Shown here piece by piece: positions 17,988 through 45,765 of a stretch of 64,000 bases of DNA. Position 1 is the stretch's first letter. Every line of letters starts with the position of its first letter. Made by a program: the position numbers and the translations under genes. This stretch comes from Rhizobium sp. SL42 (GTDB taxonomy: Bacteria > Pseudomonadota > Alphaproteobacteria > Rhizobiales > Rhizobiaceae): the NCBI RefSeq assembly GCF_021729845.1, contig NZ_CP063398.1, positions 558,001 through 622,000 on the forward strand. Direction: 5' to 3'. The notes below the pieces were generated by a model. That model did no database searches. It was not told where the DNA came from and was given only the letters and a program-made list of their open reading frames with translations.

Positions 17988-18497
17988 ATGGTCACTGTAA
18001 AAAAAGATGCCCGGTATGAAGTGTACCTGAAGGCACGCAAGGCCCTGATCGACTATGCCACGCCGATTACCGGCTCCCGCGAGGACGCTGAGGATATTGT
18101 ACAGGATGCGTTTCTGAAGTTTGTGCCGGAAGACAGCGAAGGGCCAACGCCTCCGAAGGCCTATCTGTTTCGCATCGTTCGCAACCTGTCTTTCAATAAA
18201 AGGCGCAGGCGCAAGCTTGAGACGAAGGATGAGCCGGACGACATTCCATGGTGGGCCTGGCCGCAAAGCCGCCCGTCACCGGAGGCGGACCTCGTGCTGC
18301 AGCAGCAGATAAAGCTGGTGGCTCAGGTCATGGAGCAATTGCCGGATCGCGAACGCGCGGTCATGGAGATGTACCGCTTCGAAAAAATGACGCTGCAGGA
18401 GATCGCTGATCGGCTGGCGATTTCTGTTGCCACCGCGCACCGCTTGCTAAGTGCAGCCATGCGCCGCCTCCGGGACGAGACAAGGGATGTCTTGTGA
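17988..18497 (+). CDS. FecI-like ECF sigma factor
   Basis: The protein has 169 residues from ATG 17988; GTG 17931 and ATG 17970 are in-frame alternatives, but the family N-terminus fits 17988. Region 2 is ARKALIDYATPITGSREDAE followed by DIVQDAFLKF, and region 4 is LPDRERAVMEMYRFEKMTLQ followed by EIADRLAISVATAHRLL. It should direct RNA polymerase to the hemophore receptor or transport genes once the paired FecR-like protein relays a signal from the TonB receptor, as in FecI/HasI systems. Its TGA overlaps the GTG of the anti-sigma gene. An IRO box upstream indicates iron repression. Confidence 0.9.
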   Translation: MVTVKKDARYEVYLKARKALIDYATPITGSREDAEDIVQDAFLKFVPEDSEGPTPPKAYLFRIVRNLSFNKRRRRKLETKDEPDDIPWWAWPQSRPSPEADLVLQQQIKLVAQVMEQLPDRERAVMEMYRFEKMTLQEIADRLAISVATAHRLLSAAMRRLRDETRDVL

Positions 18498-19606
18498 CGG
18501 AAAAAATCCCGCTCAATGCAAATTCTGTGAAAGAATTACCCGGCTCGCGTGTTTATGCAGATAATGCATTTGAAACTACACAATCGCCAGGACTGACAAG
18601 GCCGGCCCAGATGACCTCCGAACCACGCAACAACCGATCTCTCCTGTTTGAGGAAGCCAGCGAATGGCTGATCCGTATCCGGGAAAATCCACAATCCGCC
18701 GATACACGGGCGACGTTCGAGGCCTGGCGGCGGACCTCTTCGGATCATGAACAGGCTTGGAGCGATCTCTGTCGTCTATGGAGCGCCACGGGAAAGGCCG
18801 AGCCGTTCTATCGTCCGCTTGCCCAATCAAGCAAGCCCAAGGCGCCGAAGGCAATGCGGTTGCCGGTATTTTCCCTTCCCCGGCTTGCGACGGCGCTGGC
18901 GATTGTGTGCGTCAGCGCACTCGCTGTCTTCTTTGCGGCCCCCTCCCTGATGATCCGATTGTCCGCAGATCACGTGACGACGACTGCGGAGATCCAGACC
19001 ATCCGGCTGGAGGATGGCAGCACGGTGCAACTTGCGCCCGAGAGTGCCCTGCGCATCGAATTCCACGACGGTGTCCGGCAGGTCGTGCTTGTGCGCGGTG
19101 AAGCATTCTTCGACGTCGCCAAGGATACAAACCGGAAATTCAAGGTCGTTGCGGGCGGCACCGAGGTCGAAGTGCTCGGCACCGCCTTCGATGTTCATGT
19201 CACCGAGGCGTCGACAACGGTCTCCGTTGCCCGCGGCTCGGTCTCGGCATTTGCCAGAAACGCTTCGCCACCTTCGTCAAACAACATGCTTGCACCGGGC
19301 GACGCCATCGAGATCGACGAGCGGACGGGCATTGCGACCAGGACGCTTGTTGCGGCAGACGACGTCGGCTCGTGGCGTCAAGGCAGGTTGGTGGTCAGCA
19401 ATGCGACCATAGCCTCGGTGGTGGACGTCATCCGGCACTACGACAGCGCGTGGATCACGCTTGCGGATACTTCGCTCGGCGAACAGAGGGTGACGGGTAT
19501 CTACGACCTCAAATCCCCCGAACTCGCACTCGGGGCGCTGGTCGATCCATTCGGCGGCAGGGTCAGAAACTTCGGCAGCTCCGTCAGGGTCATAAGCCGC
19601 CATTAA
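18494..19606 (+). CDS. FecR-like anti-sigma/signal transducer
   Basis: This 370-residue protein starts at GTG 18494 and overlaps the sigma gene by four bases. The N-terminal cytoplasmic domain (FEEASEWLIRIRENPQSADT, then FEAWRRTSSDHEQAW) binds the sigma factor. One membrane helix follows at about 120-145 (LPRLATALAIVCVSALAVFF). The periplasmic FecR domain includes IRLEDGSTVQLAPESALRIE and GEAFFDVAKD. The last 80 residues resemble an STN-like fold (VTGIYDLKSPELALGALVDP). It would contact the signalling domain of the downstream receptor, completing a cell-surface signalling trio. Confidence 0.9.
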   Translation: MTEKIPLNANSVKELPGSRVYADNAFETTQSPGLTRPAQMTSEPRNNRSLLFEEASEWLIRIRENPQSADTRATFEAWRRTSSDHEQAWSDLCRLWSATGKAEPFYRPLAQSSKPKAPKAMRLPVFSLPRLATALAIVCVSALAVFFAAPSLMIRLSADHVTTTAEIQTIRLEDGSTVQLAPESALRIEFHDGVRQVVLVRGEAFFDVAKDTNRKFKVVAGGTEVEVLGTAFDVHVTEASTTVSVARGSVSAFARNASPPSSNNMLAPGDAIEIDERTGIATRTLVAADDVGSWRQGRLVVSNATIASVVDVIRHYDSAWITLADTSLGEQRVTGIYDLKSPELALGALVDPFGGRVRNFGSSVRVISRH

Positions 19607-19611
19607 AAATA

Positions 19612-19626
19612 TGATAATAATAATCA
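19612..19626 (+). promoter_or_regulatory. IRO box (TGA-N9-TCA) before hasR
   Basis: TGA (19612-19614) and TCA (19624-19626) flank nine A/T bases (TAATAATAA), 111 bases before the receptor start. It is the second RirA-type site of the has cluster, so hasR may be transcribed separately under direct iron control. Confidence 0.6.
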
Positions 19627-19736
19627 AGATTTAGCACAAAAGCGAAAAACCTACTGAAAATATCGGCTTATCGATGTGTCTTTCTGTCAGCAAACCGGTT
19701 CGACCGGTGTGCCAAGGCAGGAGAGGCAGTGGGTAA

Positions 19737-22568: not shown

Positions 22569-22613
22569 CGCTTCCCTTATCGCGCGGCTTAGCAGCAGCG
22601 CCGACCAGAAATT

Positions 22614-22669
22614 CCCCGGGCCAGGGTGATGGCCTGACCCGGGGATACAATGTCCGGACGATCGTCCGG
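22614..22669 (+). promoter_or_regulatory. Hairpin plus 16-bp palindrome between hasR and hasA
   Basis: CCCCGGGCCAGG (22614-22625) pairs with CCTGACCCGGGG (22633-22644), 11 of 12 bases, with a seven-base loop. Right after it lies the perfect palindrome CCGGACGATCGTCCGG (22654-22669). These stems could stabilise or process the mRNA so that hasA is made in excess over hasR; partial termination is also possible. Confidence 0.55.
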
Positions 22670-22702
22670 GCCAATGTCAACAGCCACTCAAGGAGAAACC
22701 CC

Positions 22703-23425
22703 ATGGCTGCAGTCATCCAACTTAGCTCCGCCTCCGCCAATATGGAAGGCTACCTCAACGGTTGGACGAGCGGTTACAGCTCGACCTATGGCGCATTTTG
22801 GGACGAGGGTAACGGCCTGGTCACCAATCCGCTCGCAACGACCGTCTACGAACAATGGGGCAACGGCTCCACAGGCGGCAACGGCATCTACATGGAAGGC
22901 GAATTCCAGTATTCCCGCGGCAACCTGACCGGCACCGTCGACAGCATCACGCTCGGCACAGGCTTCAGCCAGTCTGCATCTACCGGCTTCAGCGTCTCGG
23001 CCGATCTCGTGATCACGCCGGACAGCACTTTCCCGAGTGCCAGCCAGGATGTCTTCGATTGGGCGATCTACGATCTGACCGTCAACAGCTCGCTCGACAG
23101 CCTCTATGACTATCTGGCGGCCGTTGGCACCGAAGTTCGCGATACCGCCGCTTCCGATACCCTGGTTGGGTTCGGCGGCGCCGACACTTTCGTGTTCAGC
23201 TCCGGCAATGACATCGTCAAGGCAGGTCCGGCCGGCACTTATGGCTATCAGGACGGTGTAGACACGTTGGACGTTTCGGGATGGTACCTTTCCGATTTCA
23301 GCGAACTGACCTTCTCAAACCTTAACGGCAACGCCGTTATCGGAAACCAGTATACCAGTGACACCATCACACTGAATGGTGTTTCGTCCAGCGTCCTCGA
23401 CGCCTCCGACTTCCTGTTCGCCTAA
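22703..23425 (+). CDS. hasA: HasA-like secreted hemophore with RTX-like C-terminal tail
   Basis: This 240-residue protein has no N-terminal signal peptide, as expected for type I secretion. Residues 14-145 follow the HasA hemophore: EGYLNGWTSGYSSTYG at the start, EGEFQYSRGNLTGTVDSITL in the middle and SSLDSLYDYLAAVGTEV at the end. Tyr70 aligns with the heme-ligating Tyr75 of Serratia HasA. The loop carrying its partner His83 is deleted, the His32 position is not His, and the whole protein contains no His and no Cys. Residues 150-240 look like an RTX/serralysin-type C-terminal block (VGFGGADTFVFSSGNDIV) ending DASDFLFA, a typical type I export end. The gene sits between receptor and exporter genes. 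Heme binding by Tyr alone, or another ligand, is possible. Confidence 0.75.
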   Translation: MAAVIQLSSASANMEGYLNGWTSGYSSTYGAFWDEGNGLVTNPLATTVYEQWGNGSTGGNGIYMEGEFQYSRGNLTGTVDSITLGTGFSQSASTGFSVSADLVITPDSTFPSASQDVFDWAIYDLTVNSSLDSLYDYLAAVGTEVRDTAASDTLVGFGGADTFVFSSGNDIVKAGPAGTYGYQDGVDTLDVSGWYLSDFSELTFSNLNGNAVIGNQYTSDTITLNGVSSSVLDASDFLFA

Positions 23426-23435
23426 GGGTAACAAA

Positions 23436-23466
23436 GGTCGCGCGCACAGCTCTTGTGCGCGCGACC
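23436..23466 (+). terminator. Perfect 13-bp hairpin between hasA and hasD
   Basis: GGTCGCGCGCACA (23436-23448) pairs with TGTGCGCGCGACC (23454-23466) around loop GCTCT, between the hemophore stop and the exporter start. It resembles the attenuators that hold type I exporter expression below that of the secreted substrate. Confidence 0.7.
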
Positions 23467-23498
23467 ACTTCGTTTCAAACCAGGAGCGCGTCGACCGC

Positions 23499-25325
23499 AT
23501 GCAAACTGCAAATCGCACGGAACACGCCCCGGCGGGCAAGGCCTTGAAAATCAACGGGCCTCTGGCGGCCATTGCGCTGCTCAGTGGCGTCACCAACATT
23601 CTGGCGCTGACCTCGCCGCTCTTCATGCTGCAGGTCTATGACCGTGTTCTGTCAAGCGGCAGCATTCCCACGCTGGTCGGGCTCGCCGTCCTGGCCGCTA
23701 GCCTCTATGCCTTCCAAGCCCTGCTCGACATCATCCGGGCGCGTGTGCTGCTGCGGATCGGTGAAAAATTCGACCACCGTCTGTCACCACGCGTCTACCA
23801 TGCGGTGGTCCGTCTACCGCTCCTCACGCGGATGCCCGGAGACGGGCTCCAGCCATTGCGCGATCTCGACAATGTGCGCGGCTTTCTCTCCGGCAGTGGC
23901 CCGACCGCCTTCTTCGACCTGCCCTGGATGCCGCTCTATCTCGGCATCAGCTTTCTGTTCCACGTCTGGATCGGCGTCACCGCTCTTGCCGGTGCGATCA
24001 TGCTGGTCTCACTGACGATCCTGACCAATCTGATGTCCCGTCGGCCGATCCGCGAGGCGACCGCCGCCAACATGGCGCGCAACGGGCTTCTCGAAGCCAC
24101 CCGACGGAATGCCGAAATCGTCCACGCCATGGGCCTCGGCTCACGCACGGCGCTGCGCTGGCAGCAGGCCAATCTCGACTATCTCCACGCAAACAGGCAA
24201 TCCGGCGACGTGATGAACGGGCTCGGCAACCTGTCGCGCGCTTTGCGCATGATGCTGCAATCGGCTCTTCTCGGCGTCGGCGCCTGGCTGGTCATCAGCC
24301 AGGAGGCCACCGGCGGCGTGATGATCGCCAGTTCGATCATGATGGGCCGCGCACTGGCGCCGGTCGATGCGGCGATCACCGCCTGGAAGCCCTATCTGAT
24401 GGCGCGCCAGAGCTGGACACGGCTGCAGGAACTGCTGGCACGCGTTCCGCTGGACCCTCCCGTCCTGTCCTTGCCGCGGCCGCAAAGCGATCTCAGGGTC
24501 GATGCCCTGGCAGTCGCGCCGCCCGGCGAGAAAATCCCCACGCTCGCCGGCATCGCATTTGCCATCCAGGCCGGAAACGCCCTCGGGATCATCGGCCCTT
24601 CCGGTTCCGGCAAATCAACCCTGGCACGCGCACTCGTCGGCGCATGGCCACCGCTGGCAGGCAAGGTCCGGATCGATGGCGCCAGCCTAGACCAATGGAA
24701 CCGGGAGGAACTCGGCCCCCATATCGGCTACCTGCCCCAGGGTGTCGAACTCTTCGACGGGACGATTGCCGAAAACATCGCAAGGCTGGAGGCACAGCCG
24801 AATTCCGAAGCCATCGTTGCCGCCGCCCGGACAGCCGGTGCGCATGAGATGATCTTGCGGATGGAGCATGGCTACGACACCCGGATCGGCGAAGGCGGGT
24901 CGGCGCTGTCTGCCGGACAGCGCCAGCGCATCGGTCTCGCACGCGCCCTCTACAATGATCCGTTTCTGGTGATCCTCGACGAGCCGAATGCCAATCTGGA
25001 CGCTGAAGGCGAAGCCGCCGTCGTGAAAGCGATTGCCTCGGTGCGTGCGCGCAAGGGCATTGCCGTCGTCGTCGCCCACCGCCCGAGCGCGATCGGGGCC
25101 GTGGATTTCATCTTGATGGTCGAGGCAGGCCGGCAAAAGGCCTTTGGCCCGCGTGAAAAGGTTCTGGCCGAAGTCCTGCAGGCACTCCCGCCGGCGGTTC
25201 GTCCCTATCAGCCGGCTCCTTACGGCATCTCGCCCCTGCGGGTCGTCGCCTCACCCGGCAGCGCCCTCCAGGCAGAACACACCTACCCGACCGCCAAACA
25301 GGGAGATGCCGATGTCACTCCATGA
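23499..25325 (+). CDS. hasD: Type I secretion ABC exporter (permease-ATPase), HasD/PrtD-like
   Basis: The protein has 608 residues from ATG 23499. The N-terminal half holds about six membrane helices (SGVTNILALTSPLFMLQVYD is typical of PrtD/HasD exporters, and there is no C39 peptidase-like domain). The ATPase half has Walker A IIGPSGSGKST, signature LSAGQRQRIGLAR, Walker B FLVILDEPNANLD and switch His in VVVAHRPSA. It exports the adjacent hemophore across the inner membrane together with the HlyD-type adaptor. Its end overlaps the next start by 14 bases. An outer-membrane TolC-like component is not in the window. Confidence 0.92.
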   Translation: MQTANRTEHAPAGKALKINGPLAAIALLSGVTNILALTSPLFMLQVYDRVLSSGSIPTLVGLAVLAASLYAFQALLDIIRARVLLRIGEKFDHRLSPRVYHAVVRLPLLTRMPGDGLQPLRDLDNVRGFLSGSGPTAFFDLPWMPLYLGISFLFHVWIGVTALAGAIMLVSLTILTNLMSRRPIREATAANMARNGLLEATRRNAEIVHAMGLGSRTALRWQQANLDYLHANRQSGDVMNGLGNLSRALRMMLQSALLGVGAWLVISQEATGGVMIASSIMMGRALAPVDAAITAWKPYLMARQSWTRLQELLARVPLDPPVLSLPRPQSDLRVDALAVAPPGEKIPTLAGIAFAIQAGNALGIIGPSGSGKSTLARALVGAWPPLAGKVRIDGASLDQWNREELGPHIGYLPQGVELFDGTIAENIARLEAQPNSEAIVAAARTAGAHEMILRMEHGYDTRIGEGGSALSAGQRQRIGLARALYNDPFLVILDEPNANLDAEGEAAVVKAIASVRARKGIAVVVAHRPSAIGAVDFILMVEAGRQKAFGPREKVLAEVLQALPPAVRPYQPAPYGISPLRVVASPGSALQAEHTYPTAKQGDADVTP

Positions 25326-26631
25326 CATGGACTTTGCCGTCAGCCGCTCGATCCGTCGCCATATGCGCCTCGGGCTCCTCGCCTGCCTGCTGCTGGTCGG
25401 TGGCGCCGGTGCCTGGGCGGCCGTGACGAACCTGTCGGGTGCCGTCGTTGCCAGCGGCCATTTCGTGGTCGACAGCTATCTGAAAACGGTCCAGCATCCG
25501 CAAGGCGGTGTGGTCGGGGAAATTCTGGTGCGCGAAGGCGACAGCGTTGCCGCAGGCCAGGTGGTGATGCGTCTCGATGCCACTCAGGCCAGGGCCAATC
25601 TCGATATGGTGCGCAAGCGGCTGGATGAGCTGCTTGCCCGGCAGGCCCGATTGCAGGCGGAACGAGACGACCTGCAGCAAATCGCCTTTCCGGTTGCCTT
25701 GTTGGAGGGCCAGCGCCAGGGACAGGTGGAAGTGGCCGCCGCTATCGACAGCGAAACGCGGCTGTTCGAGTTCCGCCGGGCCTCGCGCGAGGGGCAGAAG
25801 GCACAGCTCGGCGAGCGCATCCTGCAATATGGCCATGAAATCGAGGGACTGCGCGCGCAGGAAGCCGCCTATCGCGAGGGAAGCGAGGTCTTGCGCGGTG
25901 AAATTTCGCTACTTGCGGACCTGCGCAAGCAAGGTGCGGTTTCCGACCAGCGCCTCAACGGCCTGAAGACCGAGCTTGCGACATTCGGCGGCGAACTAGG
26001 CGAAAAGATCGCCTATCAGGCGCAGATTGCCGGTCGGATTACCGAAACCCGGCTCGCCATGCTGCAGATCGACCAGGACCTGAAGACCGAAGTCGGCAGG
26101 GAACTGCGCGAGGTACAGGGCGATATCGGCGAATATGTCGAACGCAAGATCGCATCGGAGGACCAGCTCAAGCGGATCGATATCATCACACCGCAATCGG
26201 GCGTGGTGCATCAACTGGCGGTTCACACGGTTGGCGGGGTGGTGACGCCGGCAGAACCCATCATGCTGATCGTGCCGAAAAGCGACCGGCTTTCCGTCGA
26301 GATACGCATCTCGCCCAAGGACATCGATCAGGTGCAGCCGGGTCAGAAAGCCATGATCCGCCTGTCGGCCTTCAATCAGCGAACAACTCCGGAATTCAGT
26401 GGCCATGTCAGCCGCGTGGCGGCGGATCTGACCTCCGACGAAAAGACAGGGCTTTCCTATTATCTGGTGCGGCTTTCGGTCGATGCCGGCAAAGAAGCTG
26501 AGCTTGCCGGATTGGCACTTGTGCCGGGCATGCCGGCCGAGGTTTTCGTCCAGACCGGCAAACGATCCGCTTTGTCCTATCTCGTCAAACCGCTGAGCGA
26601 CCAGATCACCCGCGCCTTCCGCGAGCAGTAG
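25312..26631 (+). CDS. hasE: HlyD/HasE-type membrane fusion protein of type I secretion
   Basis: The protein has 439 residues from ATG 25312, chosen over ATG 25306 because GGGAG is then correctly spaced. It has one N-terminal membrane helix (LGLLACLLLVGGAGAWAAV), a lipoyl-like segment (VQHPQGGVVGEILVREGDSV), long coiled-coil helices at about 90-290, and a beta-barrel ending (DIITPQSGVVHQLAVHTVGG). This is the classic PrtE/HasE/HlyD adaptor that links the inner-membrane ABC exporter to TolC. It closes the has operon; convergent gabD remnants follow after 99 bases. Confidence 0.92.
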   Translation: MSLHDMDFAVSRSIRRHMRLGLLACLLLVGGAGAWAAVTNLSGAVVASGHFVVDSYLKTVQHPQGGVVGEILVREGDSVAAGQVVMRLDATQARANLDMVRKRLDELLARQARLQAERDDLQQIAFPVALLEGQRQGQVEVAAAIDSETRLFEFRRASREGQKAQLGERILQYGHEIEGLRAQEAAYREGSEVLRGEISLLADLRKQGAVSDQRLNGLKTELATFGGELGEKIAYQAQIAGRITETRLAMLQIDQDLKTEVGRELREVQGDIGEYVERKIASEDQLKRIDIITPQSGVVHQLAVHTVGGVVTPAEPIMLIVPKSDRLSVEIRISPKDIDQVQPGQKAMIRLSAFNQRTTPEFSGHVSRVAADLTSDEKTGLSYYLVRLSVDAGKEAELAGLALVPGMPAEVFVQTGKRSALSYLVKPLSDQITRAFREQ

Positions 26632-36679: not shown

Positions 36680-37420
36680 CTATCGGCTCCTAAACGACGG
36701 TGCGTATGTGAAGGCGCCATCACCCTCGAACAACGCCTTGCGGACCTCGACGCCATAAAGCCTCGCCAGGCTTGCCTCCGACACAATGCGAGCAGTCGGG
36801 CCGAAGTCGAACTCGTTGCTGCCATACATCAACAGAACGTCGCTTGCGATTTCCAGCGCATGTTGGGGAGAATGGGTGGTGAACAGCACGGTCATGCCAT
36901 GTTGGCGCGACAGCCGGTCCAACACCGAGATCACCACGGCCTGATTGTGATAGTCGAGTGCGGAACAGGGTTCGTCAAGGATCAGCACCTGGCATTCCGA
37001 CACAAGCGCCTGGGCGATGATGACAAGCTGCCTCTGGCCGCCGCTCAGCGCATTGAAGGAGCGCTCTGCCAGATGATTGATGCCAAGCATGGAGAGCTGG
37101 TTATGCACGGCGTCGTAGTCAAGGCGCTGGGGCGTACCGAACAAGCCAACCTGACGCGCGCGGCCCATCAACACGATATCGGTCACCGAGTAGTCGAAAG
37201 CGACGTCGAAGAGTTGCGGTACATAGCCGATACGGGCACGGCAATGCACTTCACCCCGGCTCGGTGCCACCAGGCCGGCGATCGTGTTGATCAGGCTGGT
37301 CTTGCCGACACCATTCGCGCCGAGGATTGCCACAACGCTGCCGGTGGAAATGGCAAGGTCATATCCTTCGAGGATCGGGCGGCCGCCTCGCTCCACGGAC
37401 AAATCGCGCACCTCAATCAC
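36680..37420 (-). CDS. Iron/siderophore-class ABC transporter ATPase (first cassette)
   Basis: The protein has 246 residues from GTG 37420, where GGGAGG lies upstream and the start overlaps the permease end by eight bases. Walker A ILGANGVGKTS, signature LSGGQRQLVIIAQ, Walker B QVLILDEPCSALD and switch TTHSPQHA are present. The relatives are FecE/FhuC/BtuD ATPases. It is the last gene of a minus-strand operon with permease and binding protein. Its C-terminus (YGVEVRKALFEGDGAFTYAP) resembles that of the ATPase at 43198 (YGVPMRWVEVTGPTGETRRA). Confidence 0.92.
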   Translation of the reverse strand: MIEVRDLSVERGGRPILEGYDLAISTGSVVAILGANGVGKTSLINTIAGLVAPSRGEVHCRARIGYVPQLFDVAFDYSVTDIVLMGRARQVGLFGTPQRLDYDAVHNQLSMLGINHLAERSFNALSGGQRQLVIIAQALVSECQVLILDEPCSALDYHNQAVVISVLDRLSRQHGMTVLFTTHSPQHALEIASDVLLMYGSNEFDFGPTARIVSEASLARLYGVEVRKALFEGDGAFTYAPSFRSR

Positions 37421-38477
37421 TCTTCCAGCCTCCCTTGCTCTGCATGCGTCGCAAGAGGACGGCAAAGACCGGAACGCCGATCAGCGACGTGATGATGCCG
37501 ACCGGGATTTCGGCCGTCGACACCGTTCGCGCGATATTGTCGACCAGCAGCATGTAGATTGCCCCGAGCAGAATGGAGACCGGCAGCAACCGGCCATGGT
37601 CGGGTCCGGAAATGGCCCGCGCCACATGTGGGATGACCAGTCCAACCCACCCGATAATCCCGCAACAGGCCACCACGCCGGCCGAGATGACAGCGGTTGC
37701 GCCGAGCACGGCCCATTGAACCGTCGCGACCGGAGATCCAAGCGCCCGCGCCTTCTCCTCGCCAAGCGAGATGATGTTGATTTGGAAACGCATGAGATAG
37801 ATCACCGCCAGAGCCGGGACCATCACGACCGCCATGAGCAACAGGTCTTCATAGTTTGTCGATGCCAGGCTGCCCATCAGCCAATAGGTAATGGCCGGCA
37901 GTTTCTGGTGCGGATCGGCAAGCAATTTCACGATCGATATAGCCGAGCCGAAGAAGGCCGAAATGATGACCCCAGCCAGCACGAGCGCCAAGACGGACGT
38001 CCTTCCGCGGGAACTTGCCAGCACCTTGACGATCATCACGCTTGCCAGTCCGAAGAGGAATGCAATCGCAAGAAGACCGTAGCCAAAAATCCCTGACAGG
38101 ATGGCGAGCGTTCCGCCGAAGCCGGCGCCGCTCGTGACGCCGATGATGTTCGGATCAACCAGTGGATTGCGAAACAGGCCCTGCAAAGCGGCGCCCGACG
38201 CCGCAAGCCCGGCGCCAACCAGCACGGCGGCCAGGATACGAGGCAGCCGTACGAGTTCCACGACCTGTTCCTCCAGCACCGTCCAGTCTGGATTGCGCAC
38301 CGGTATGAGATTGTCGGCAAGGATACGGATGACCTTGAGCACATCAAGGTCGTAACGCCCGATGGTGATGGAAACGAGGGTCAAGGCGACGAGCGCTGTA
38401 AACAGCACCAGCGTGGCGGGTATTGCGCTCCCGCCGCGCTGCCTTGAAATTGTCTCGCTGGTCGAGGCCACAGACAC
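37413..38477 (-). CDS. FecCD-family ABC permease (first cassette)
   Basis: This 354-residue inner-membrane protein has about ten helices and the BtuC/FecCD hallmarks: VRLPRILAAVLVGAGLAASG, ALQGLFRNPLVDPNIIGVTS, then GWVGLVIPHVARAISGPDH near the C-terminus. It starts at GTG 38477, overlapping the last base of the binding-protein stop. A single FecCD gene implies a homodimeric channel. It is 50-60% similar by eye in motif blocks to the permease at 42149. Confidence 0.93.
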   Translation of the reverse strand: MSVASTSETISRQRGGSAIPATLVLFTALVALTLVSITIGRYDLDVLKVIRILADNLIPVRNPDWTVLEEQVVELVRLPRILAAVLVGAGLAASGAALQGLFRNPLVDPNIIGVTSGAGFGGTLAILSGIFGYGLLAIAFLFGLASVMIVKVLASSRGRTSVLALVLAGVIISAFFGSAISIVKLLADPHQKLPAITYWLMGSLASTNYEDLLLMAVVMVPALAVIYLMRFQINIISLGEEKARALGSPVATVQWAVLGATAVISAGVVACCGIIGWVGLVIPHVARAISGPDHGRLLPVSILLGAIYMLLVDNIARTVSTAEIPVGIITSLIGVPVFAVLLRRMQSKGGWKSD

Positions 38478-39541
38478 TATTCGAACAGGGCTGCGTATCC
38501 GGGAGCCTGGCTATTTGCCTCCAGCTCAAGAATACGGTTGATGAGCGCTTCGTCCGGTTCACGACCGTAGATCGTCACGTAGGCATCGCGAACAGTCTTG
38601 CGGAAGTCTTCGTCGATCGGACCCATCTCCGGATGAGCAACCATGGCAAGCCATACCGCCGAGAGGAACAGTTCCGGGGAATCCGGCGAGGCGTTGAACT
38701 TCGGGACCTTGTAGACGCGTTTGTTCTTCACCGCGTCCATACCTGAAAGCAAGGGATGCGCATAGAAATCGGACGGGTTGAGCGTCACGGCCTGGGCCGG
38801 AATGATGATCATGTCGGGGTTCCAGGTGAAGAGCTGCTCCACATCGACATTCTTCCACCATTCGCCGCTGTCATCTGCTGCGAGGTTCTTGATTCCGCTC
38901 AGGGAAAAGTCCTGCGAGGGATTGGCAACGACCTGGATCTGGTCGCCGAGCTTCTCGATGTAGACGAGGCTGACTTGCTTGTCGTCCGCCAGTTCGCCGA
39001 ATTTTGCCTTCATCGCCGCGTTGGAATCATAATGGAGCTTGAGCGTCGCTTCTGCCCGTTCCGGATGACCGGAGATGATGCCGCTCATGGTGATGTAGTC
39101 AAGGCGCTGCTGTTCCGAGCAGCATCCCCAAGCCGCAACCTTGAGGCCGACACGCTCCAGCGGCTCGATGAGGTCCGGGTTGTGCATGGCCTGGATCACC
39201 AGCTGCGGGTTCGTTGCCAGTATCGCCTCGACATTGGGGGCGAAGCCATCGCGGGCGGCCGTACCGTCGAGCTCAAGCAATTCGGGAATGAGATCCGCAT
39301 AGACGAACTTCTTCATACGAGCGATCGAATCCGCATTCACCGCAACCATGTGATCAGTCGTACGATCCGCCGAATAGTAGATGAACGGCGCTGCCCGGAT
39401 GATCGTCGCAATCCGCTCAGGAGGCGCTGCCAACTCGATCTTCTGCCCGCGGTGATCCTCAAAGCTGATCGGTTTATCACCGGCGTGTGCGGCCGAAACC
39501 GCCAGCATTGCCGCCAAGCCTGTAAAAATCGCCGTCTTCAT
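38477..39541 (-). CDS. Iron-complex-type solute-binding protein (first cassette)
   Basis: This 354-residue protein has a signal peptide (TAIFTGLAAMLAVSAAHA) and a class III (BtuF/FecB) fold: PPERIATIIRAAPFIYYSAD, LIPELLELDGTAARDGFAPN, EQLFTWNPDMIIIPAQAV. The cargo is probably an iron or metal complex; the IRO box in the divergent promoter (39587-39601) supports iron control. Notable are a CC pair (AAWGCCSEQQR) near residue 140 and two Trp in GEWWKNVD. It diverges from the unknown two-domain gene at 39648. Confidence 0.9.
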   Translation of the reverse strand: MKTAIFTGLAAMLAVSAAHAGDKPISFEDHRGQKIELAAPPERIATIIRAAPFIYYSADRTTDHMVAVNADSIARMKKFVYADLIPELLELDGTAARDGFAPNVEAILATNPQLVIQAMHNPDLIEPLERVGLKVAAWGCCSEQQRLDYITMSGIISGHPERAEATLKLHYDSNAAMKAKFGELADDKQVSLVYIEKLGDQIQVVANPSQDFSLSGIKNLAADDSGEWWKNVDVEQLFTWNPDMIIIPAQAVTLNPSDFYAHPLLSGMDAVKNKRVYKVPKFNASPDSPELFLSAVWLAMVAHPEMGPIDEDFRKTVRDAYVTIYGREPDEALINRILELEANSQAPGYAALFE

Positions 39542-39586
39542 GATCTTCGCCCCAGATTGTTTTGTCGCGGAGCTGATATGATATAT

Positions 39587-39601
39587 TGACTATTTATGTC
39601 A
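39587..39601. promoter_or_regulatory. IRO box (TGA-N9-TCA) in the divergent promoter
   Basis: TGA (39587-39589) and TCA (39599-39601) are nine bases apart inside a larger inverted repeat TTGAC-N7-GTCAA (39586-39602). It lies between the binding-protein gene and the two-domain unknown gene and could repress both in iron-rich conditions. A small repeat TGCCAC/GTGGCA follows at 39614-39627. Confidence 0.62.
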
Positions 39602-39647
39602 AGTTTAGATATCTGCCACCTGTGGCAGGCTGAAAACTGGACGGTAC

Positions 39648-41012
39648 ATGCAAAAGATAGGTTATGTGACGTGGGGCAACGCCGCGCAGGTGCGCAGCTT
39701 CCAGGACTTTGCCCATCTGCTCGACGACATGCTGTATCTTCGCGAACTCGATCGGCACGATCTCGGTGCATATTCTGCCATCATCATCCCGGATGTAATG
39801 GATTGCGTGGAATTGAGAGCGCACGCCCGGCAATTGAACGACTATGTCCGCAATGGCGGCTTTCTCATCGTTTTTTCGATCCGCGACGTCGAGAACATCA
39901 TTGATGTGGTCAAGCTCAAATGGCAGCCAGTGAACGCACGGGATTGGCTCTGGTGGACGCGCCCCAATCCCTATCTCGAGGTCCGGCAGCCGGAGCCTCG
40001 GCATCCGATCTGCGACGCCATTTCACTTGCCGACATGAGCTGGCACTGGATGGGAGCACTGGAGAAACATCCCGACGCCGAGCACATTCTGACCCTTGAC
40101 GACGACAGCCTCAGCCTCTTCATGGACTTCCGAAATCTCCAAGGCGGCGGTCGGCTGATGGTGACCACGCTCGATCCGCACGGCCACAACGGCGAGCGTT
40201 TCATGCCCGCCACCACACGCTTTCTCGAAGCATTCTATCCATGGCTCAATGGCGAACTCGGCATCAACCGGGAAAGAAACACGTTTAGCCTTACATATCT
40301 GCGGGCTCTCGACAGCACCTGGGACTGGGAACCGCCGGGTCTGGCCGAAACCTTCGAGGGAACCGGCGTCACCCTTCGCTACCACGCTCTCTACGATCTC
40401 GACGACACCGTACTGCGGGACTCCAATTTCATCTACATACCTAACAACACGGACGAGATCTTCCTGCGCAGCAGGGCAACTGACTTTCTAGCCTTCCTGG
40501 AACGCGGTGGGCATCTCATCCTGTCGAGCCAGCCGGCCATCCCATGGCTGCCATTCATGTCGACGTTTCGCGCCGTGGCACCGCGCCCGTTCACCAACCT
40601 GAAGGTACGCGTTCGACACGACCCACTCGGCTTCTTCTCGAATGTGAGCGACGAATTCGACGGCTGGCAGGGGATTTTCGGTCAGTACGCGCGCGGCTGG
40701 ACGGACATGCCAGAGGGCGCCATCTGGTTGACAGATGTGGGACCTACGGACGACCCGAAACCGGCGGACTGGCTGTGGAAATACCCGACCTCCAACGACA
40801 AGGGGGGCTACGTGTTCATGCACAACGGCGACAGCATCGTGCGGTATCCAGATCATGGGCCGCACGGCCCCTGTCTGTTGCGCGACATCTGCAACGGCAT
40901 CATTGCCGCCGAGGGCAAAATCTCGAAGCCGGAAAGACCATCTTATCCAAACCTGTCCTGGGGCATATGCGACTGTCATCGCCAACAGCGCTTCCTGGCA
41001 GCGGCGCGCTAG
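39648..41012 (+). CDS. Two-domain protein of unknown function, domain order B-A
   Basis: This 454-residue soluble protein has no signal peptide or membrane segment. Residues about 1-200 form one alpha/beta, amidotransferase-like domain (SAIIIPDVMDC, LNDYVRNGGFLIVFS) ending LDPHGHNGERFMPATTRFL. Residues about 240-420 form a second (FIYIPNNTDE, FLAFLERGGHLILSS, then PADWLWKYPTSNDKGGYVFM). Both halves match the protein at 43953-45263, but there the order is reversed (its 236-430 matches 1-200 here; its 1-195 matches 240-420 here). No catalytic Cys-His-Glu triad is evident. It diverges from one metal ABC importer and lies 49 bases before the second, so a role in processing or sensing the imported complex is inferred. 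Confidence 0.7.
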   Translation: MQKIGYVTWGNAAQVRSFQDFAHLLDDMLYLRELDRHDLGAYSAIIIPDVMDCVELRAHARQLNDYVRNGGFLIVFSIRDVENIIDVVKLKWQPVNARDWLWWTRPNPYLEVRQPEPRHPICDAISLADMSWHWMGALEKHPDAEHILTLDDDSLSLFMDFRNLQGGGRLMVTTLDPHGHNGERFMPATTRFLEAFYPWLNGELGINRERNTFSLTYLRALDSTWDWEPPGLAETFEGTGVTLRYHALYDLDDTVLRDSNFIYIPNNTDEIFLRSRATDFLAFLERGGHLILSSQPAIPWLPFMSTFRAVAPRPFTNLKVRVRHDPLGFFSNVSDEFDGWQGIFGQYARGWTDMPEGAIWLTDVGPTDDPKPADWLWKYPTSNDKGGYVFMHNGDSIVRYPDHGPHGPCLLRDICNGIIAAEGKISKPERPSYPNLSWGICDCHRQQRFLAAAR

Positions 41013-41061
41013 TGCGCTATTCGCCGAGGAAACTAGACAATCTACTTTTTGGAGACATTCA

Positions 41062-42147
41062 ATGACCATCCGATTTCCTATCGCCCTGGCGGGAGTAGTC
41101 CTCGCCATACTTGCATCAATCCCAGCGCGCGCCGACCCAATTACCATCAATGACCATGAAGGTAGGACCGTAACGCTGGCAAAGCCGGTCGAGCGGATCG
41201 CCTCGATCCCGATCCCGATGGCCTCCACCATCATCGCCATGGACGGCGGAACCTCCAAGCTCGTCGGCATGAACCCGACCGCCAAATCGGCGATCGTCGA
41301 GGGTGTGCTGGGCAAGATCTTCCCCGAGGCCAAGGACATTCCCTCCGACATCACCGCGCCGAACTTCATTCCCAATGTCGAGGAACTGGCGGCCACCAAT
41401 CCGGAACTGGTGATCCAGTGGGCCGATCGCGGCCCGGACCTGGTCGATCCGATCGTCAATGCCGGCCTCAACGCGCTTCTGATCTCCTACGGCTCGGAAG
41501 AAAAGACCAAGCAGTACCAGGCCATGGTGGCGACCGCGATGGGCAAGCCCGAGCGCGCCGAGATGATCAATGGCTGGCGCGACCAGGTGGCCGCCGAAAT
41601 GGCCGCGAAGTCGAAGGATATTCCGGCCGACAAGAAGCCACGTATCCTTTATCTCGGCCGCGCGCTGGAAAGCCTCACGGCCTCCGGCGACAAGGGCAAT
41701 TATGCAGCCTTCTACGTCAATCTGGCCGGCGCCGTCTCGGTTTCGGCCGATCTCGAGGGCCAGGGCACGACGATCAGCCCCGAGCAGATCGCCGAGTGGA
41801 ACCCGGACGTCATTCTCCTCAACAGTTTCGAAGCCAAGCTCGGCCTTGAGCGCATCTATGACGATCCGATCCTGTCGCTGACCAAGGCCGCCCAGGACAA
41901 GCGCGTCTACAAGATGCCGCTCGGCGGCTATCGCTGGGATCCGCCGAACCAGGAAAGCCCGCTGACCTGGATGTGGCTCGCCAATCTCATGCATCCCGAC
42001 ATCTTCCAGTACGACCTGCGCGCAGAGATGAAAAAGGCCTACAAGACGCTCTACGACTACGACCTGACCGACGAGGACATCGACGGCATCCTGTGGATCG
42101 GCATGCAGGGCGACGCCACCGACTACGCCCAGTTCAAGGCGAAGTAG
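41062..42147 (+). CDS. Iron-complex-type solute-binding protein (second cassette)
   Basis: The protein has 361 residues from ATG 41062 (GGAG eight bases upstream). A signal peptide (IALAGVVLAILASIPARA) precedes a BtuF/FecB-type fold: TINDHEGRTVTLAKPVERIA, VEELAATNPELVIQWADRG, AEWNPDVILLNSFEAKLG, YRWDPPNQESPLTWMWLA. The last segment is typical of a subgroup of metal-complex binders that differs from classical siderophore binders. Compared with the first cassette it shares fold but little direct identity. It begins a run of five tightly packed genes. Confidence 0.9.
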   Translation: MTIRFPIALAGVVLAILASIPARADPITINDHEGRTVTLAKPVERIASIPIPMASTIIAMDGGTSKLVGMNPTAKSAIVEGVLGKIFPEAKDIPSDITAPNFIPNVEELAATNPELVIQWADRGPDLVDPIVNAGLNALLISYGSEEKTKQYQAMVATAMGKPERAEMINGWRDQVAAEMAAKSKDIPADKKPRILYLGRALESLTASGDKGNYAAFYVNLAGAVSVSADLEGQGTTISPEQIAEWNPDVILLNSFEAKLGLERIYDDPILSLTKAAQDKRVYKMPLGGYRWDPPNQESPLTWMWLANLMHPDIFQYDLRAEMKKAYKTLYDYDLTDEDIDGILWIGMQGDATDYAQFKAK

Positions 42148-42148
42148 G

Positions 42149-43201
42149 ATGGCGATGGCGGCGGCGGAAAGCGGGCGTAAGAGCCTGATCGGCGTCAGGA
42201 TCGGCGCCTTCGGCCTGATGGCGCTGGCGCTTGTCGCCGCCATGCTGTTTTCGATCGGCGCCGGGCGTTTTTCCGTCGACGTGCCTCGGATCGGCGAAAT
42301 CCTGCTGGCGGCGGTCATGAACCCCGACGCCGCGCCGAGCCAGATGGACGAGCGCATCGTGCTTTTGGTGCGGCTGCCGCGCGTTCTGCTGGCGGCGCTG
42401 TCGGGCGCGGCGCTCGCCGTCGGTGGTGCTGCGCTGCAGGGCGTGTTCCGCAATCCGCTGGTCTCGCCGCAGGTGCTGGGCATCAGCCAGGGGGCCGCCT
42501 TCGGCGGCGCGCTCGCCATCCTGTTCGGCTATTCCGGCTTCATCCTGCTTGGCATGGCCTTCCTGCTCGGCCTGTCGGCGCTGGTCATGGTCGGGCTTCT
42601 CGCCCGCATCAACGGCCGCACCGAGGTGATCACGGTGATCCTCGCCGGCATGATCGTCGGCGCGCTGTTTGCCGCGCTGGTCTCGGTCGTGCAGTTCGTC
42701 GCCGATCCCAACACCTCGCTGCCGGCGATCGTCTACTGGCTGATGGGCTCGTTCTCGACCGCCACCTGGCCACGCCTGTGGCTCGCCGTTCCGGGCATGG
42801 GACTTGGCCTCTTCGCCGTCTGGATGTTGCGCTACCGGCTCAACCTTCTGGCGCTCGAGGAACAGGAGGCCCGGTCGCTCGGCGTCAATCCCGACCGCGA
42901 GCGCTGGTACATCTTCGTCGCCATTTCGCTGATGACCGGCACATCGGTGGCGGTGGCCGGCATTATCGGCTGGATCGGCCTCGTCGTGCCGCATGCCGCG
43001 CGCATCCTCGTCGGCGAGGACCACCGCGTGCTGATCCCCGCCTCGGCCCTGCTGGGCGCGGCATACCTGACACTGATCGACACCATGGCCCGCACGCTGA
43101 CGGCGGCCGAGATTCCGCTCGGCGTGCTGACCGCGCTGGTCGGCGCGCCGGTGTTCGGCACCCTGCTGCGCCGCCATTTCAAGGAGACCAGCCGGACATG
43201 A
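42149..43201 (+). CDS. FecCD-family ABC permease (second cassette)
   Basis: This 350-residue protein has about ten membrane helices. Family blocks are VRLPRVLLAALSGAALAVGG, ALQGVFRNPLVSPQVLGISQ, FSTATWPRLWLAVPGMGLGL and GWIGLVVPHAARILVGEDHR. It starts one base after the binding-protein stop, and its TGA overlaps the ATPase ATG. The DNA here is visibly richer in G and C at third positions than in the first cassette. Confidence 0.93.
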   Translation: MAMAAAESGRKSLIGVRIGAFGLMALALVAAMLFSIGAGRFSVDVPRIGEILLAAVMNPDAAPSQMDERIVLLVRLPRVLLAALSGAALAVGGAALQGVFRNPLVSPQVLGISQGAAFGGALAILFGYSGFILLGMAFLLGLSALVMVGLLARINGRTEVITVILAGMIVGALFAALVSVVQFVADPNTSLPAIVYWLMGSFSTATWPRLWLAVPGMGLGLFAVWMLRYRLNLLALEEQEARSLGVNPDRERWYIFVAISLMTGTSVAVAGIIGWIGLVVPHAARILVGEDHRVLIPASALLGAAYLTLIDTMARTLTAAEIPLGVLTALVGAPVFGTLLRRHFKETSRT

Positions 43202-43956
43202 TCGGCCTTGACGACGCTTCCGTCTCCTTCGGTGCCCGCCCCCTGTTTTCCGGCATCAGCTTCACCGTGCCGGTCGGCCGGTCGATGGCGGTGCTCGGCC
43301 CCAACGGGCGCGGCAAGACCACGCTTTTGCGCGCCCTGCTCGGCTTCCAGCCGCTGGCGAAGGGTCGCCGCAGCGCGCCGAAAATCGCAGGATACGTGCC
43401 GCAGCACGGCGCCTCTCAGGCCAAGCTTTCCGGGCTCGACGTGGTGGTGATGGGCCGGGCGGCACGGCTCGGGCTGTTCGGCCAGCCCTCGGCCGAGGAT
43501 CGCGCGGCGGCGGCGGAGGCGCTGGTCGAGGTCGGCGCCTGCCATCTCGCCGAGCTTCGCTACGACCGCATGTCCGGCGGGCAGCGGCAGATGGTGCTGA
43601 TCGCGCGGGCCATCGCCACCGGTTCGCCGGCGCTGGTGTTCGACGAGCCGACCTCGGCGCTCGATCTCGGCAACCAGTCGCGCACGCTGGAACTCCTGAA
43701 CACGCTCAGGCTGCGCCGCGACAAGGCCATCCTGTTCACCACCCACGACCCCAACCATGCGCTGGCGGCGGCCGACGACGTTCTCCTGATGATGCCGGGC
43801 GGGCGCGAGATGCACGGGACCGTCGCCGACATGATCGAGCCCGACAAGCTTTCCGAGCTTTACGGCGTGCCGATGCGCTGGGTGGAGGTCACCGGACCGA
43901 CGGGCGAGACGCGCCGGGCAATCCTGCCGGCCTTCGCCGGAATAGAGGCAGCATGA
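43198..43956 (+). CDS. Iron/siderophore-class ABC transporter ATPase (second cassette)
   Basis: The protein has 252 residues from ATG 43198 (four-base overlap with the permease). Walker A is LGPNGRGKTT, with Arg where Ala is more usual; signature MSGGQRQMVLIARA, Walker B LVFDEPTSALDLG and switch TTHDPNHA are present. Its stop overlaps the start of the two-domain unknown gene (ATGA), so all five genes of this cassette are translationally linked. Confidence 0.93.
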   Translation: MIGLDDASVSFGARPLFSGISFTVPVGRSMAVLGPNGRGKTTLLRALLGFQPLAKGRRSAPKIAGYVPQHGASQAKLSGLDVVVMGRAARLGLFGQPSAEDRAAAAEALVEVGACHLAELRYDRMSGGQRQMVLIARAIATGSPALVFDEPTSALDLGNQSRTLELLNTLRLRRDKAILFTTHDPNHALAAADDVLLMMPGGREMHGTVADMIEPDKLSELYGVPMRWVEVTGPTGETRRAILPAFAGIEAA

Positions 43957-45263
43957 GTACGATCTATCTGAAATCCACCTATGAGGCTCCGTCCGAGGCG
44001 GTGAAGGCGGCCGCCGCCGAGGGTTTTGTGACGATCGTCGAGCAGTCGGCGCTGAACGCCGACATGCTTCTGGCCCACAAGGGCCTGATCACCGGCAACC
44101 AGCTCGACCAGAACGCCATGGCGCTGATGCGCGAGGCGCTCGCCGCCTTCCTCGAAGCCGGCGGGCGCTGGTTCTTCAACGGCCACATGGTGCGGCCGCT
44201 GGTCGACGGCATGGCCCAGTACCGGCCGATCGAGGCGCCGAAGCGCGCCGATTTCGACCTCGCCTCGGTCAATTCCCATCCGGTATTTGCCGGTATCGAC
44301 CTTTCGAAACTCGAGACCAACAAGGGCGTTGCCGGCTTTTACGGCCGGGGCTGCAATCCGCTGCCCGAGGGCGCGGTCGCGGTCAACGGCCTGGGCGCGG
44401 CGAAGGTGCCGGTCGACTGGGTCTGGGCGCGTCCAAAGGGTGGGCGGATCTTTTCCCATGCCGGCAATGATCTTGGCTCGATGGGGCTCGAATGGAAGCT
44501 TTCGGGCGAGCTGACGCGCCGCATGATCGACTGGACCCGCGGCGGCACATGCCTCGACCCCTGGCCCGGTTCGCCCGCGTCACCGGCGGCCGACCTGCCG
44601 CTTTCCGCCTCCGAAACCTATGGCGGCATGCGCATGTCGAGCCACACCGGACGGCGTATCGTCGCGCCATCCTGCGGCACCCATTACCATATCCGCAGCC
44701 TTGAAGGGCCGCGCTACACCGCGGCCTTCGACGTGATCTGCGCGCCCGAACAGCTCGCCGACATCCTTCGGCCAGACGACATTCTCTGGGTTCCGTGCCG
44801 CACGCCGGCGCAGCGCATGATCGCCCAGAAGCCCGTGATCGCCCGCCACCTGGCGGCCGGCGGAACGGTGGTGGCGCTCGGCGAAAGCCAGTCAGATCTC
44901 TGGCTGCCGCATGTCGACTTTACCGGCACGCCGACGAACTGGTGGTGGTGGCTCGATCCGGCCGCCGATCTCGGCGTGCGCGTGACCGAAGTCGCCGCCC
45001 GCCATCCGCTGATGGCCGGGATCGGCGACCGGCAGGCGACCTGGCACCTGCACGGCTGGTTCGTGCCGCCGGACGGCGCCACGGTTCTCGCCCGCGATGG
45101 AGACGGCCGGGCGATCCTCTACGAGGACAAGGTCTCGACCAAAGGCACGATGATCCTCTCCTCGCTTGATCCGATGTTCCACCACGGTTCGCACTTCATG
45201 CCGGCCACGACCTTTTTCCTCGACTGTTTCGTACCCAACCTGAAAGCCTTCGCAGATGTCTAA
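43953..45263 (+). CDS. Two-domain protein of unknown function, domain order A-B
   Basis: This 436-residue soluble protein is related to the one at 39648 but with the two domains in the opposite order. Residues 1-195 (FLEAGGRWFFNGHMVRPLVD, VPVDWVWARPKGGRIFSHAG) correspond to the C-terminal half of that protein. Residues 236-430 (HLAAGGTVVALGESQSDLWL, then LDPMFHHGSHFMPATTFFL) correspond to its N-terminal half. The fold suggests paired amidotransferase-like alpha/beta domains without an obvious catalytic triad. It overlaps the ATPase gene by four bases and the FmdE-like gene by eight, so it is part of the transport operon. Confidence 0.72.
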   Translation: MSTIYLKSTYEAPSEAVKAAAAEGFVTIVEQSALNADMLLAHKGLITGNQLDQNAMALMREALAAFLEAGGRWFFNGHMVRPLVDGMAQYRPIEAPKRADFDLASVNSHPVFAGIDLSKLETNKGVAGFYGRGCNPLPEGAVAVNGLGAAKVPVDWVWARPKGGRIFSHAGNDLGSMGLEWKLSGELTRRMIDWTRGGTCLDPWPGSPASPAADLPLSASETYGGMRMSSHTGRRIVAPSCGTHYHIRSLEGPRYTAAFDVICAPEQLADILRPDDILWVPCRTPAQRMIAQKPVIARHLAAGGTVVALGESQSDLWLPHVDFTGTPTNWWWWLDPAADLGVRVTEVAARHPLMAGIGDRQATWHLHGWFVPPDGATVLARDGDGRAILYEDKVSTKGTMILSSLDPMFHHGSHFMPATTFFLDCFVPNLKAFADV

Positions 45264-45765
45264 CGTCATTACCGTGCTCGACAACGGCCACCCGATCAGC
45301 TTCACCTTCGACAACATCAACGCCTATCACGGCGGCGGTTTTCCCGGTGGTGTCGCGCATGCGTTGAAGGCGATGCAGGCGGCGTTTCCGCTCCTCTCCG
45401 ACACGCCGCTGGAACGGCGCGAGGTGACGATCGTGACCGCGTTTTCCGGTCCCGGCGGCCGCGATGCGCTGGAAATGGTGACCCGGGCGCTGACCGAGGG
45501 ACGGCTGACCGTCGACAAGTCGATCAGCGACCATCCCGGCCCTTACGTGTTCCGTTTCAGCTATCGCGGCCGCACCGCCGAAGCCGTGATCAAGCCGGGA
45601 CACGTGAAGGAGGAATTCGTCACGCTCGGCGCCAAGCAGGACAAGACCCCCGACGAGATCGCCCGTCACGAGGAACTGAAGGCCGAAATGGCCTATCGCC
45701 TGCTGCCACTCGCAGCAGAGCAGATTTACAACGCGTCTGTTATCACGCAACAGGTCGTGCCGTAG
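45256..45765 (+). CDS. FmdE-like domain protein
   Basis: This 169-residue protein has NAYHGGGFPGGVAHALKAM at 22-40, matching the helix that in FmdE-family proteins reads roughly FHGH-x-CPG-x2-LGYRA. The second half (TIVTAFSGPGGRDALEMVTR; YVFRFSYRGRTAEAVIKPG) fits the rest of that domain. FmdE was named from methanogen formylmethanofuran dehydrogenase operons, but most bacterial members have unknown roles. The Cys of the HxCPG motif is Phe here, and there is no C-terminal zinc ribbon. It overlaps the two-domain gene by eight bases and ends the cassette. Confidence 0.65.
   Translation: MSNVITVLDNGHPISFTFDNINAYHGGGFPGGVAHALKAMQAAFPLLSDTPLERREVTIVTAFSGPGGRDALEMVTRALTEGRLTVDKSISDHPGPYVFRFSYRGRTAEAVIKPGHVKEEFVTLGAKQDKTPDEIARHEELKAEMAYRLLPLAAEQIYNASVITQQVVP

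Follow-up and report, generated by a model that had tools for sequence, protein, structure and literature searches.

To our knowledge, the cytoplasmic release of iron from imported chelates is known for a limited set of siderophores, with FhuF, Fes and the SIP reductases among the cytosolic proteins that carry it out. Here, we describe two proteins encoded beside importers of the FecBCD type in a 64-kb stretch of Rhizobium sp. SL42 (GCF_021729845.1, contig NZ_CP063398.1, positions 558,001–622,000), hereafter called the window, whose own coordinates are used throughout. Protein A (454 aa, 39648–41012) and protein B (436 aa, 43953–45263) were found at the positions given in the original prediction, which was made from the window sequence alone. 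Each of them contains two halves in opposite order. The half with the LDPxxHxxxxFMPATT motif was named M and the half with the DWLW and HNGD motifs was named W; thus, A has the order M-W and B the order W-M. We propose with moderate confidence that M and W form a cytosolic two-subunit unit with a GATase1-like fold, which would receive iron complexes from the neighbouring importers and free their iron.

Based on sequence and profile–profile matches, the M half of A comprises residues 1–212 (39648–40283, forward strand) and its W half residues 213–454 (40284–41012, forward strand), residues 428–454 being of low confidence in the predicted model. In B, the W half occupies approximately residues 1–205 (43953–44567) and the M half approximately residues 222–436 (44616–45263), both on the forward strand. 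The swapped domain order is real: the BLASTP comparison of A with B gave two crossed alignments, namely A 45–201 with B 271–431 (29% identity, E 8e-15) and A 251–397 with B 34–174 (26% identity, E 3e-11). The motif LDP-x2-H-x4-FMPATT-x-FL was confirmed at residues 175–193 of A and 405–423 of B. Profiles of the halves were built from 119 A-family and 106 B-family sequences of 400–500 aa, other lengths being excluded. Using hhalign, the N-terminal half of A matched the C-terminal half of B with E 8.4e-32 over 196 columns, and the C-terminal half of A matched the N-terminal half of B with E 5.5e-15 over 172 columns. The halves in the same position gave much weaker matches (E 3.2e-3 and 1.3e-6), and those within one protein gave E 9e-6 for A and 9e-4 for B. 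Because of these E values, the crossed similarity is judged to be far above chance, with a weak core common to all four halves.

The structures of both proteins, as the original prediction had proposed, were modelled (pLDDT 91–92), and structure searches with the models pointed to a GATase1-like fold in each half. The ThuA structure 1t0b aligned to the W half of A yet to the M half of B, as would be expected if one fold were common to all halves. The Pfam family ThuA (PF06283) reached at best 15.0 bits against a gathering score of 33.4 in the ten pieces tested, A and B themselves being unmatched at E 1; PF06283 is present in the precomputed annotation of some homologues. For DUF4159 (PF13709), A scored 21.8 bits against a gathering score of 25.9 and B was unmatched. 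Since several A-family homologues carry DUF4159 in their precomputed annotation, the superfamily link is likely. A sequence search of solved structures with A, B and the M, A-family and FmdE-like profiles was uninformative: the low-E hits obtained with the M profile were to designed TIM barrels, in which no single stretch passed by itself, and to HpuA at E 0.14.

To compare gene orders, near or exact duplicates of other loci (L067, L093–L097) were excluded before counting. The remaining loci held 74 neighbouring or fused M/W pairs, and the sole unpaired pieces were W fragments at L074 and L077. Among the pairs with the order M-W, 43 of 46 were fused, and three were in two frames: the separate genes of L035 (Devosia), the two overlapping frames of L045 and the fragments of L075. 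The W-M order was represented by separate genes in 23 of 28 pairs and by fused genes in five. Trees were built for M+W, M alone and W alone from 72 full pairs, including L116, which is identical with L040. The M-W and W-M lineages were split with a support of 1.0 in all three trees, and the fused W-M proteins, including B, formed one clade (support 1.0, 1.0 and 0.999). Over the 28 W-M leaves, the fusion required one Fitch change, separate genes being the ancestral state there, which indicates that the W-M fusion happened once and late, in a lineage of separate genes. L035 is the sole separate M-W pair that is neither damaged nor partial, and its placement is unsure: the grouping of the remaining M-W pairs without it had a support of 0.188 in the concatenated tree and 0.975 in the W tree and was absent from the M tree. 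In addition, partial matches to the M-W gene, perhaps decayed copies, were seen in Sinorhizobium and Rhizobium (L074, L075, L076 and L077), no M or W match above 40 bits being obtained at L076.

Based on the above results, the "permutation" is best described as an M/W gene pair in two gene orders, each of which has yielded a fusion. A circular permutation of one ancestral protein is disfavoured, since W and M are commonly encoded by two genes and the proteins fused in the W-M order form a single nested clade. The original prediction had taken a natural permutation within one protein as a sign that the halves form a fixed complex with the imported ligand. The permutation premise did not hold, in view of the two fully supported lineages of opposite order; the fixed unit did, given the 74 adjacent pairs and the importer linkage. 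Because two opposite fusions occur naturally, M and W probably work in contact.

Both importers flanking A consist of a periplasmic binding protein, a FecCD permease and an ATPase, as predicted. Importer 1 is on the reverse strand and includes ATP1 (36680–37465; ABC_tran, 89.4 bits), whose listed TTG start may be too far upstream, FecCD1 (37413–38477; PF01032, 285 bits) and SBP1 (38477–39541; Peripla_BP_2, PF01497, 60.9 bits). Importer 2 is on the forward strand and includes SBP2 (41062–42147; PF01497, 64.8 bits), whose nearest solved chain was 4ovk_A (E 1.9e-55), FecCD2 (42149–43201; PF01032, 288 bits) and ATP2 (43198–43956). The cut-offs for PF01032 and PF01497 are 26.5 and 27.5 bits, respectively. 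The ATP2 frame was read from the sequence; it overlaps FecCD2 by four bases and was assigned by BLAST similarity (approximately 36–42%) to ATP1 homologues. The overlaps that lock B into this operon were confirmed: the start of B (43953) overlaps the end of ATP2 (43956) by four bases, and the end of B (45263) overlaps by eight bases the next gene, which encodes a 169-aa FmdE-like accessory protein (45256–45765, forward strand). It should be added to the original prediction that A is divergent from importer 1 and lies on the same strand as importer 2, 49 bp upstream of SBP2. Importer 1 is the one to whose lineage the lineage of A belongs. The expression "duplicated transporters" used in the original prediction is loose: the window permeases matched the other type in close relatives at roughly 45%, the corresponding figure for the binding proteins was roughly 29%, and each M/W type has an importer lineage of its own.

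The proposed survey for FecBCD-type neighbours was run on 73 pairs (L116 was left out), a neighbour being a gene within 5 kb, and revealed a strong importer link. A FecCD permease was found near 59 of the 73 pairs and a Nik/peptide-type permease near 13, and three had neither (the L075 fragment, L111 and L113). At L111 and L113, the ABC ATPases are accompanied by a BPD_transp_1 permease or an NMT1 binding protein. Two pairs were counted with both types, namely L047, where FecCD comes from the adjacent M-W operon, and L048, where the Nik-type permease is 4.1 kb off on the opposite strand. Both pairs of L080 have one and the same Nik-type neighbour. By type, FecCD was near 44 of 45 M-W pairs, all five fused W-M pairs and 10 of 23 separate W-M pairs, and a Nik-type permease was near 12 of these 23. 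The genome of SL42 has 11 FecCD genes in 5.17 Mb; by our own arithmetic, a FecCD gene this near would therefore be expected for approximately 3% of random genes. In the order SBP-FecCD-ATPase-A, the ATPase gene was no more than 100 bp away and on the same strand for 36 of the 45 M-W pairs. The other nine were five pairs of the window's clade, L035, the fragment L075, and the tandem second copies of L065 and L069. In the window, L033, L034 and L045, A and importer 1 are divergent; in L036, importer 1 was seen in part. In two Bacillota loci (L065:10001-12637 and L069:10001-12637), two tandem M-W proteins follow one FecBCD importer.

The RirA (IRO) box is described as an operator of the TGA-N9-TCA type (PMC6386902, PMC8822346), and Fur homologues are reported to have turned into manganese regulators in Rhizobiales, where Irr and RirA are the main iron regulators (PMC8822346). 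A predicted RirA box-like site, TTGACTATTTATGTCAA (39586–39602), is located between the divergent SBP1 and A genes, 44 bp from the former and 45 bp from the latter. It contains TGA-N9-TCA, by which the window operon was assigned to the RirA-box group, and is the sole exact TTGAC-N7-GTCAA of the whole window. TGA-N9-TCA was present at this site in all five aligned sequences, including the window, the region being 92% alike overall. The genome contains eight matches to the Rrf2 family, to which RirA belongs, five of them over the cut-off.

Operators were then counted in the 300 bp before each operon, a Fur-like box being a site with no more than two mismatches to one of three consensus forms. 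These counts leave out the window, its clade (L033, L034, L036 and L045) and L075, and the W-M loci L084, L086 and L087 as well. Outside Hyphomicrobiales, a Fur-like box preceded 9 of 10 M-W operons, compared with 0.57% of random windows of the same loci; seven of these were found with the AT-rich consensus alone and the other two with a GC-rich form. TGA-N9-TCA occurred in 8 of these 10 starts, seven times inside a Fur-like site, whose consensus includes it. Within Hyphomicrobiales, an exact TGA-N9-TCA preceded 19 of 26 M-W operons versus 8.0% of random windows, and none of the 26 had a Fur-like box; two of the 26 starts (L061 and L073), named only as Alphaproteobacteria, were placed there by the tree. 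The longer form CTTGA-N9-TCAT, which was derived from the same data, preceded 12 of the 26 versus 0.25%, and it was also carried by a Rhizobium etli plasmid operon that had not been used in deriving it. For W-M operons with FecCD, a Fur-like box was found in 4 of 10 starts (L112, L114, L115 and L123), compared with 0.35% pooled over the tested W-M loci. Among six further, held-out plasmid records, the R. etli and Labrenzia operons carry a RirA box, and the Aliivibrio operon has a Fur-like site with three mismatches. For Irr (ICE), Zur and Mur-type boxes, only isolated matches were seen, and these formed no pattern.

TonB receptors were found beside W-M pairs at L092, L123, L128 and on a Methylosinus plasmid (L126). 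On this plasmid, PepSY_TM proteins and three TonB receptors, two of them with a siderophore-receptor annotation, flank the row SBP-permease-ATPase-W-M-FmdE-like. Taken together, the operators and receptors support an iron link for the FecBCD-linked M/W forms.

As for the class named in the original prediction (BtuF-BtuC-BtuD), the best BtuC scores were 236.6 and 208.2 bits against NCBIfam equivalog cut-offs of 461 and 334, and BtuF scored 24.4 and 16.4 bits against 234. In the window and in 15 related loci, no cobalamin or NiCo riboswitch reached the gathering score. A vitamin B12 link is not supported, given these missed cut-offs and the lack of a riboswitch match, and the operator boxes point to iron instead; an iron complex is the more likely cargo.

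Both halves contain residues that could form a common site. The alignments (A3 and A4) were subjected to length and identity filters, and P0112 and P0113 were removed because of irregular reading. The A-family alignment of 101 sequences had 45 invariant columns. In A numbering, the invariant residues of M include W132, H133, G136, D160, D176, P177, H180, F185, M186 and P187, and those of W include D338, R349, G350, D374, W377, H392 and G394. Such conservation in both M and W suggests a shared ligand site. In addition, A and B are devoid of the hydrophobic signal-like N-terminus that is seen in SBP1 and SBP2 by simple hydropathy, and M and W should therefore be cytoplasmic.

We suggest the following pathway for the system. 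A ferric chelate, a siderophore or a similar compound, would enter through the FecBCD importer. M and W would jointly hold it in a site lined by the invariant residues, with WHxxG and LDPxxHxGxxFMP contributed by M and the DW.W and HxG motifs by W. They would then dismantle the chelate or strip its iron, replacing a reductase or an esterase, and in the W-M lineage the FmdE-like protein may help. In our view, the pair would most likely take up the imported complex and free its iron. Both importers of the window could be under the control of the RirA-like box that separates SBP1 from A, because A, SBP2, FecCD2, ATP2, B and the gene for the FmdE-like protein are co-directional.

Several observations weigh against this pathway. 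The GC-rich Fur forms were added after some sites had been seen, the operon starts were chosen by us, and the loci are mutually related, so that the box counts cannot be treated as independent trials. TGA-N9-TCA was absent before 7 of the 26 M-W operons of Hyphomicrobiales, and 6 of the 10 FecCD-linked W-M operons were without a Fur-like box at two mismatches or fewer. No Fur-like box preceded the seven Nik-linked, the two NitT-linked or the one L047 W-M operons, and the plasmid operons of Methylosinus, Cupriavidus and Paenibacillus cellulosilyticus had no such box. Among the solved relatives of the binding proteins, some are named for nickel and others for iron, and HI_1472 is also present. 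No catalytic residue was identified in M or W. Furthermore, the importer operon could be iron-controlled without M or W touching iron, and the cargo may not always be iron, given the Nik/peptide- and NMT1-type importers beside W-M pairs and the importer of a haloarchaeon, which resembles 2-aminoethylphosphonate transporters below the cut-off.

One alternative, which we consider unlikely although it is the most probable of the rivals, is the following: M-W would be a non-catalytic cytosolic protein that binds or senses the imported ligand or free iron and buffers or reports the cargo. It is consistent with a GATase1-like fold in a lineage without an invariant Cys, and several of the best structural matches were described merely as GATase1-like or cytoplasmic proteins, or were domains such as the IFT52 N-terminal domain. 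However, the invariant columns, many of them polar or aromatic, exceed in our judgement what a scaffold would appear to need, and no recurrent regulator was noticed beside the M-W operons that were read, whose neighbours were partly identified.

The next alternative concerns the cargo, which would be an organic molecule or a complex of a different metal (nickel, cobalt), the iron control being incidental or limited to certain lineages. We likewise think it improbable. It draws on the Nik/peptide permeases near about half of the separate W-M pairs and on their operons free of Fur-like boxes. The permeases and binding protein of L088 had nickel transporters as best models, all below the cut-off, and L113 has a binding protein of the NMT1 type. 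On the other hand, M-W operons are preceded by Fur-like or RirA-type boxes in loci of Bacillota, Vibrio, Hyphomicrobiales and the Rhodospirillales-like group, siderophore-annotated TonB receptors occur, and no nickel–cobalt or cobalamin riboswitch reached the gathering score in the sequences mentioned above. Finally, a role of M-W as a soluble regulatory subunit of the importer, which would bind the ATPase and control transport, is very unlikely: the proximity of the ATPase gene in most M-W pairs and the 4-base overlap in several operons would suit this role, but M/W occur with at least three importer families (FecBCD, Nik/peptide and NitT/NMT1) and a fourth type in the haloarchaeon, and five of the nine exceptions to ATPase adjacency belong to the window's clade, where A is divergent from ATP1 (L036 was seen in part).

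This variety of importers also allows a broader interpretation of the iron-release pathway, which we put forward only tentatively and hold to be doubtful: M and W may be a general intracellular receiver of imported metal complexes and a distinct kind of protein, which would have been joined to at least three bacterial importer families and the haloarchaeal fourth and would release iron by a chemistry unlike that of the known reductases or esterases. On the plasmid of the haloarchaeon Natribaculum luteum (L127), genes for SBP, W, M, permease and ATPase are in one row, and this importer was nearest to the 2-aminoethylphosphonate transporter models. The plasmid of P. cellulosilyticus contains FmdE-like, W and M genes with a peptide-type importer. 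On the Labrenzia plasmid (L124:13421-14962), phnG and phnH closely follow an unnamed 516-bp gene that ends the W-M operon. The phn genes of Labrenzia and the phosphonate-like importer of N. luteum may indicate a phosphonate link.

The distribution of M and W was assessed by genome surveys with a loose first pass, so that misses are possible. Matches were found in 20 of 297 genomes of the order, and 16 of these had a W-M pair. In 15 of the 16, all except Rhizobium sp. SL42, the halves were at separate places with W first, and 14 of the 15, inspected over 17.5–20 kb around the match, had W and M as two neighbouring frames. The class-level survey with the A profile gave 7 of 385 genomes, and the phylum-level survey with the M profile gave 4 of 398, W adjoining M in all three genomes other than SL42. 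Protein searches yielded 143 relatives of A and 113 of B, the latter mostly full-length (fused), and 434 matches of the M profile, of which all 120 listed were 202–213 aa, i.e., M alone. As these searches were limited by length, they cannot tell which form, fused or separate, is commoner. When genome contigs were scanned with the A profile, 45 loci were obtained, including those of Rhizobium, Ensifer, Shinella, Devosia, Rhodospirillaceae, Stappia, Roseibium, Acuticoccus, Vibrio penaeicida, Paenibacillus, Brevibacillus and Solibacillus. Thus, M/W are present across several phyla, yet in few genomes per survey.

The 169-aa protein of the window had no Pfam match at E 1. FmdE (PF02663) matched 4 of 10 members of its family at E ≤1, the relatives at L080 and L126 scoring 18.3 and 22.2 bits against a cut-off of 22.9. 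FmdE-like relatives adjoin all five fused W-M pairs and are within 5 kb of 8 of 23 separate W-M pairs; the four M-W pairs near such a gene belong to the window's clade, each with a W-M operon alongside. The FmdE-like gene is therefore mainly part of the W-M lineage. At L088:10841-10937 and L089:10637-10713, it is divergent from a W-M-NikBCA row, with a TGA-N9-TCA palindrome within 300 bp upstream of W in both, and at L089 a ZnuA-type importer follows it.

Elsewhere in the window (18494–26628), genes for a FecR-like regulator, a 943-aa TonB-dependent receptor, a 240-aa protein without a Pfam match at E 1e-5 and an ABC/HlyD pair of the type I secretion kind are in a row. A Fur-like sequence with one mismatch, TGATAATAATAATCA, is located at 19612 before the receptor gene. 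This row resembles a hemophore (Has) system.

In agreement with the original prediction, no described function was found for proteins of the A/B type, nor any described importer with extra M-W or W+M genes, in the open-access literature, and a description elsewhere is possible. The open-access literature likewise gave no report joining ThuA-like proteins with FecCD and an ABC transporter, or pairing the FmdE family with a periplasmic binding protein. The M/W pair is a concrete new candidate for the release of iron from chelates: in Pseudomonadota and Bacillota it is encoded next to importers and is frequently preceded by operators of the iron type, and it also occurs in a haloarchaeon, so far without an iron link.

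In comparison with known systems, the flanking importers are ordinary members of the FecBCD/BtuFCD metal-chelate importers by their binding protein and permease models, and importer 1 also by its ATPase. The 169-aa accessory protein is comparable with FmdE through the sub-threshold scores of its relatives, the window protein itself being unmatched. The ThuA/GATase1-like proteins (1t0b, 2gk3, 3soz, 3rht; Pfam ThuA, DUF4159 and DUF4350) are closest in fold, A, B and the tested pieces scoring below the Pfam cut-offs, and differ in that two such domains are paired here and fused in two orders. Catalytic class I glutamine amidotransferases, such as the GMP synthase subunit and aminodeoxychorismate synthase, have a C-terminal His-Glu motif. 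The conserved C-terminal LDPxxHxGxxFMP may lie roughly at that position. The M-W lineage has no invariant Cys, its highest Cys column reaching 71% of 101 sequences, and the W-M lineage has one, C282, invariant in 100 sequences and located after the third strand of its half rather than the fourth, as judged from the strands of the model, the residue counts and the general topology. Finally, if M and W do free the iron of imported complexes, they would perform the same step as FhuF, Fes and the SIP reductases, to which they are likened by role alone.

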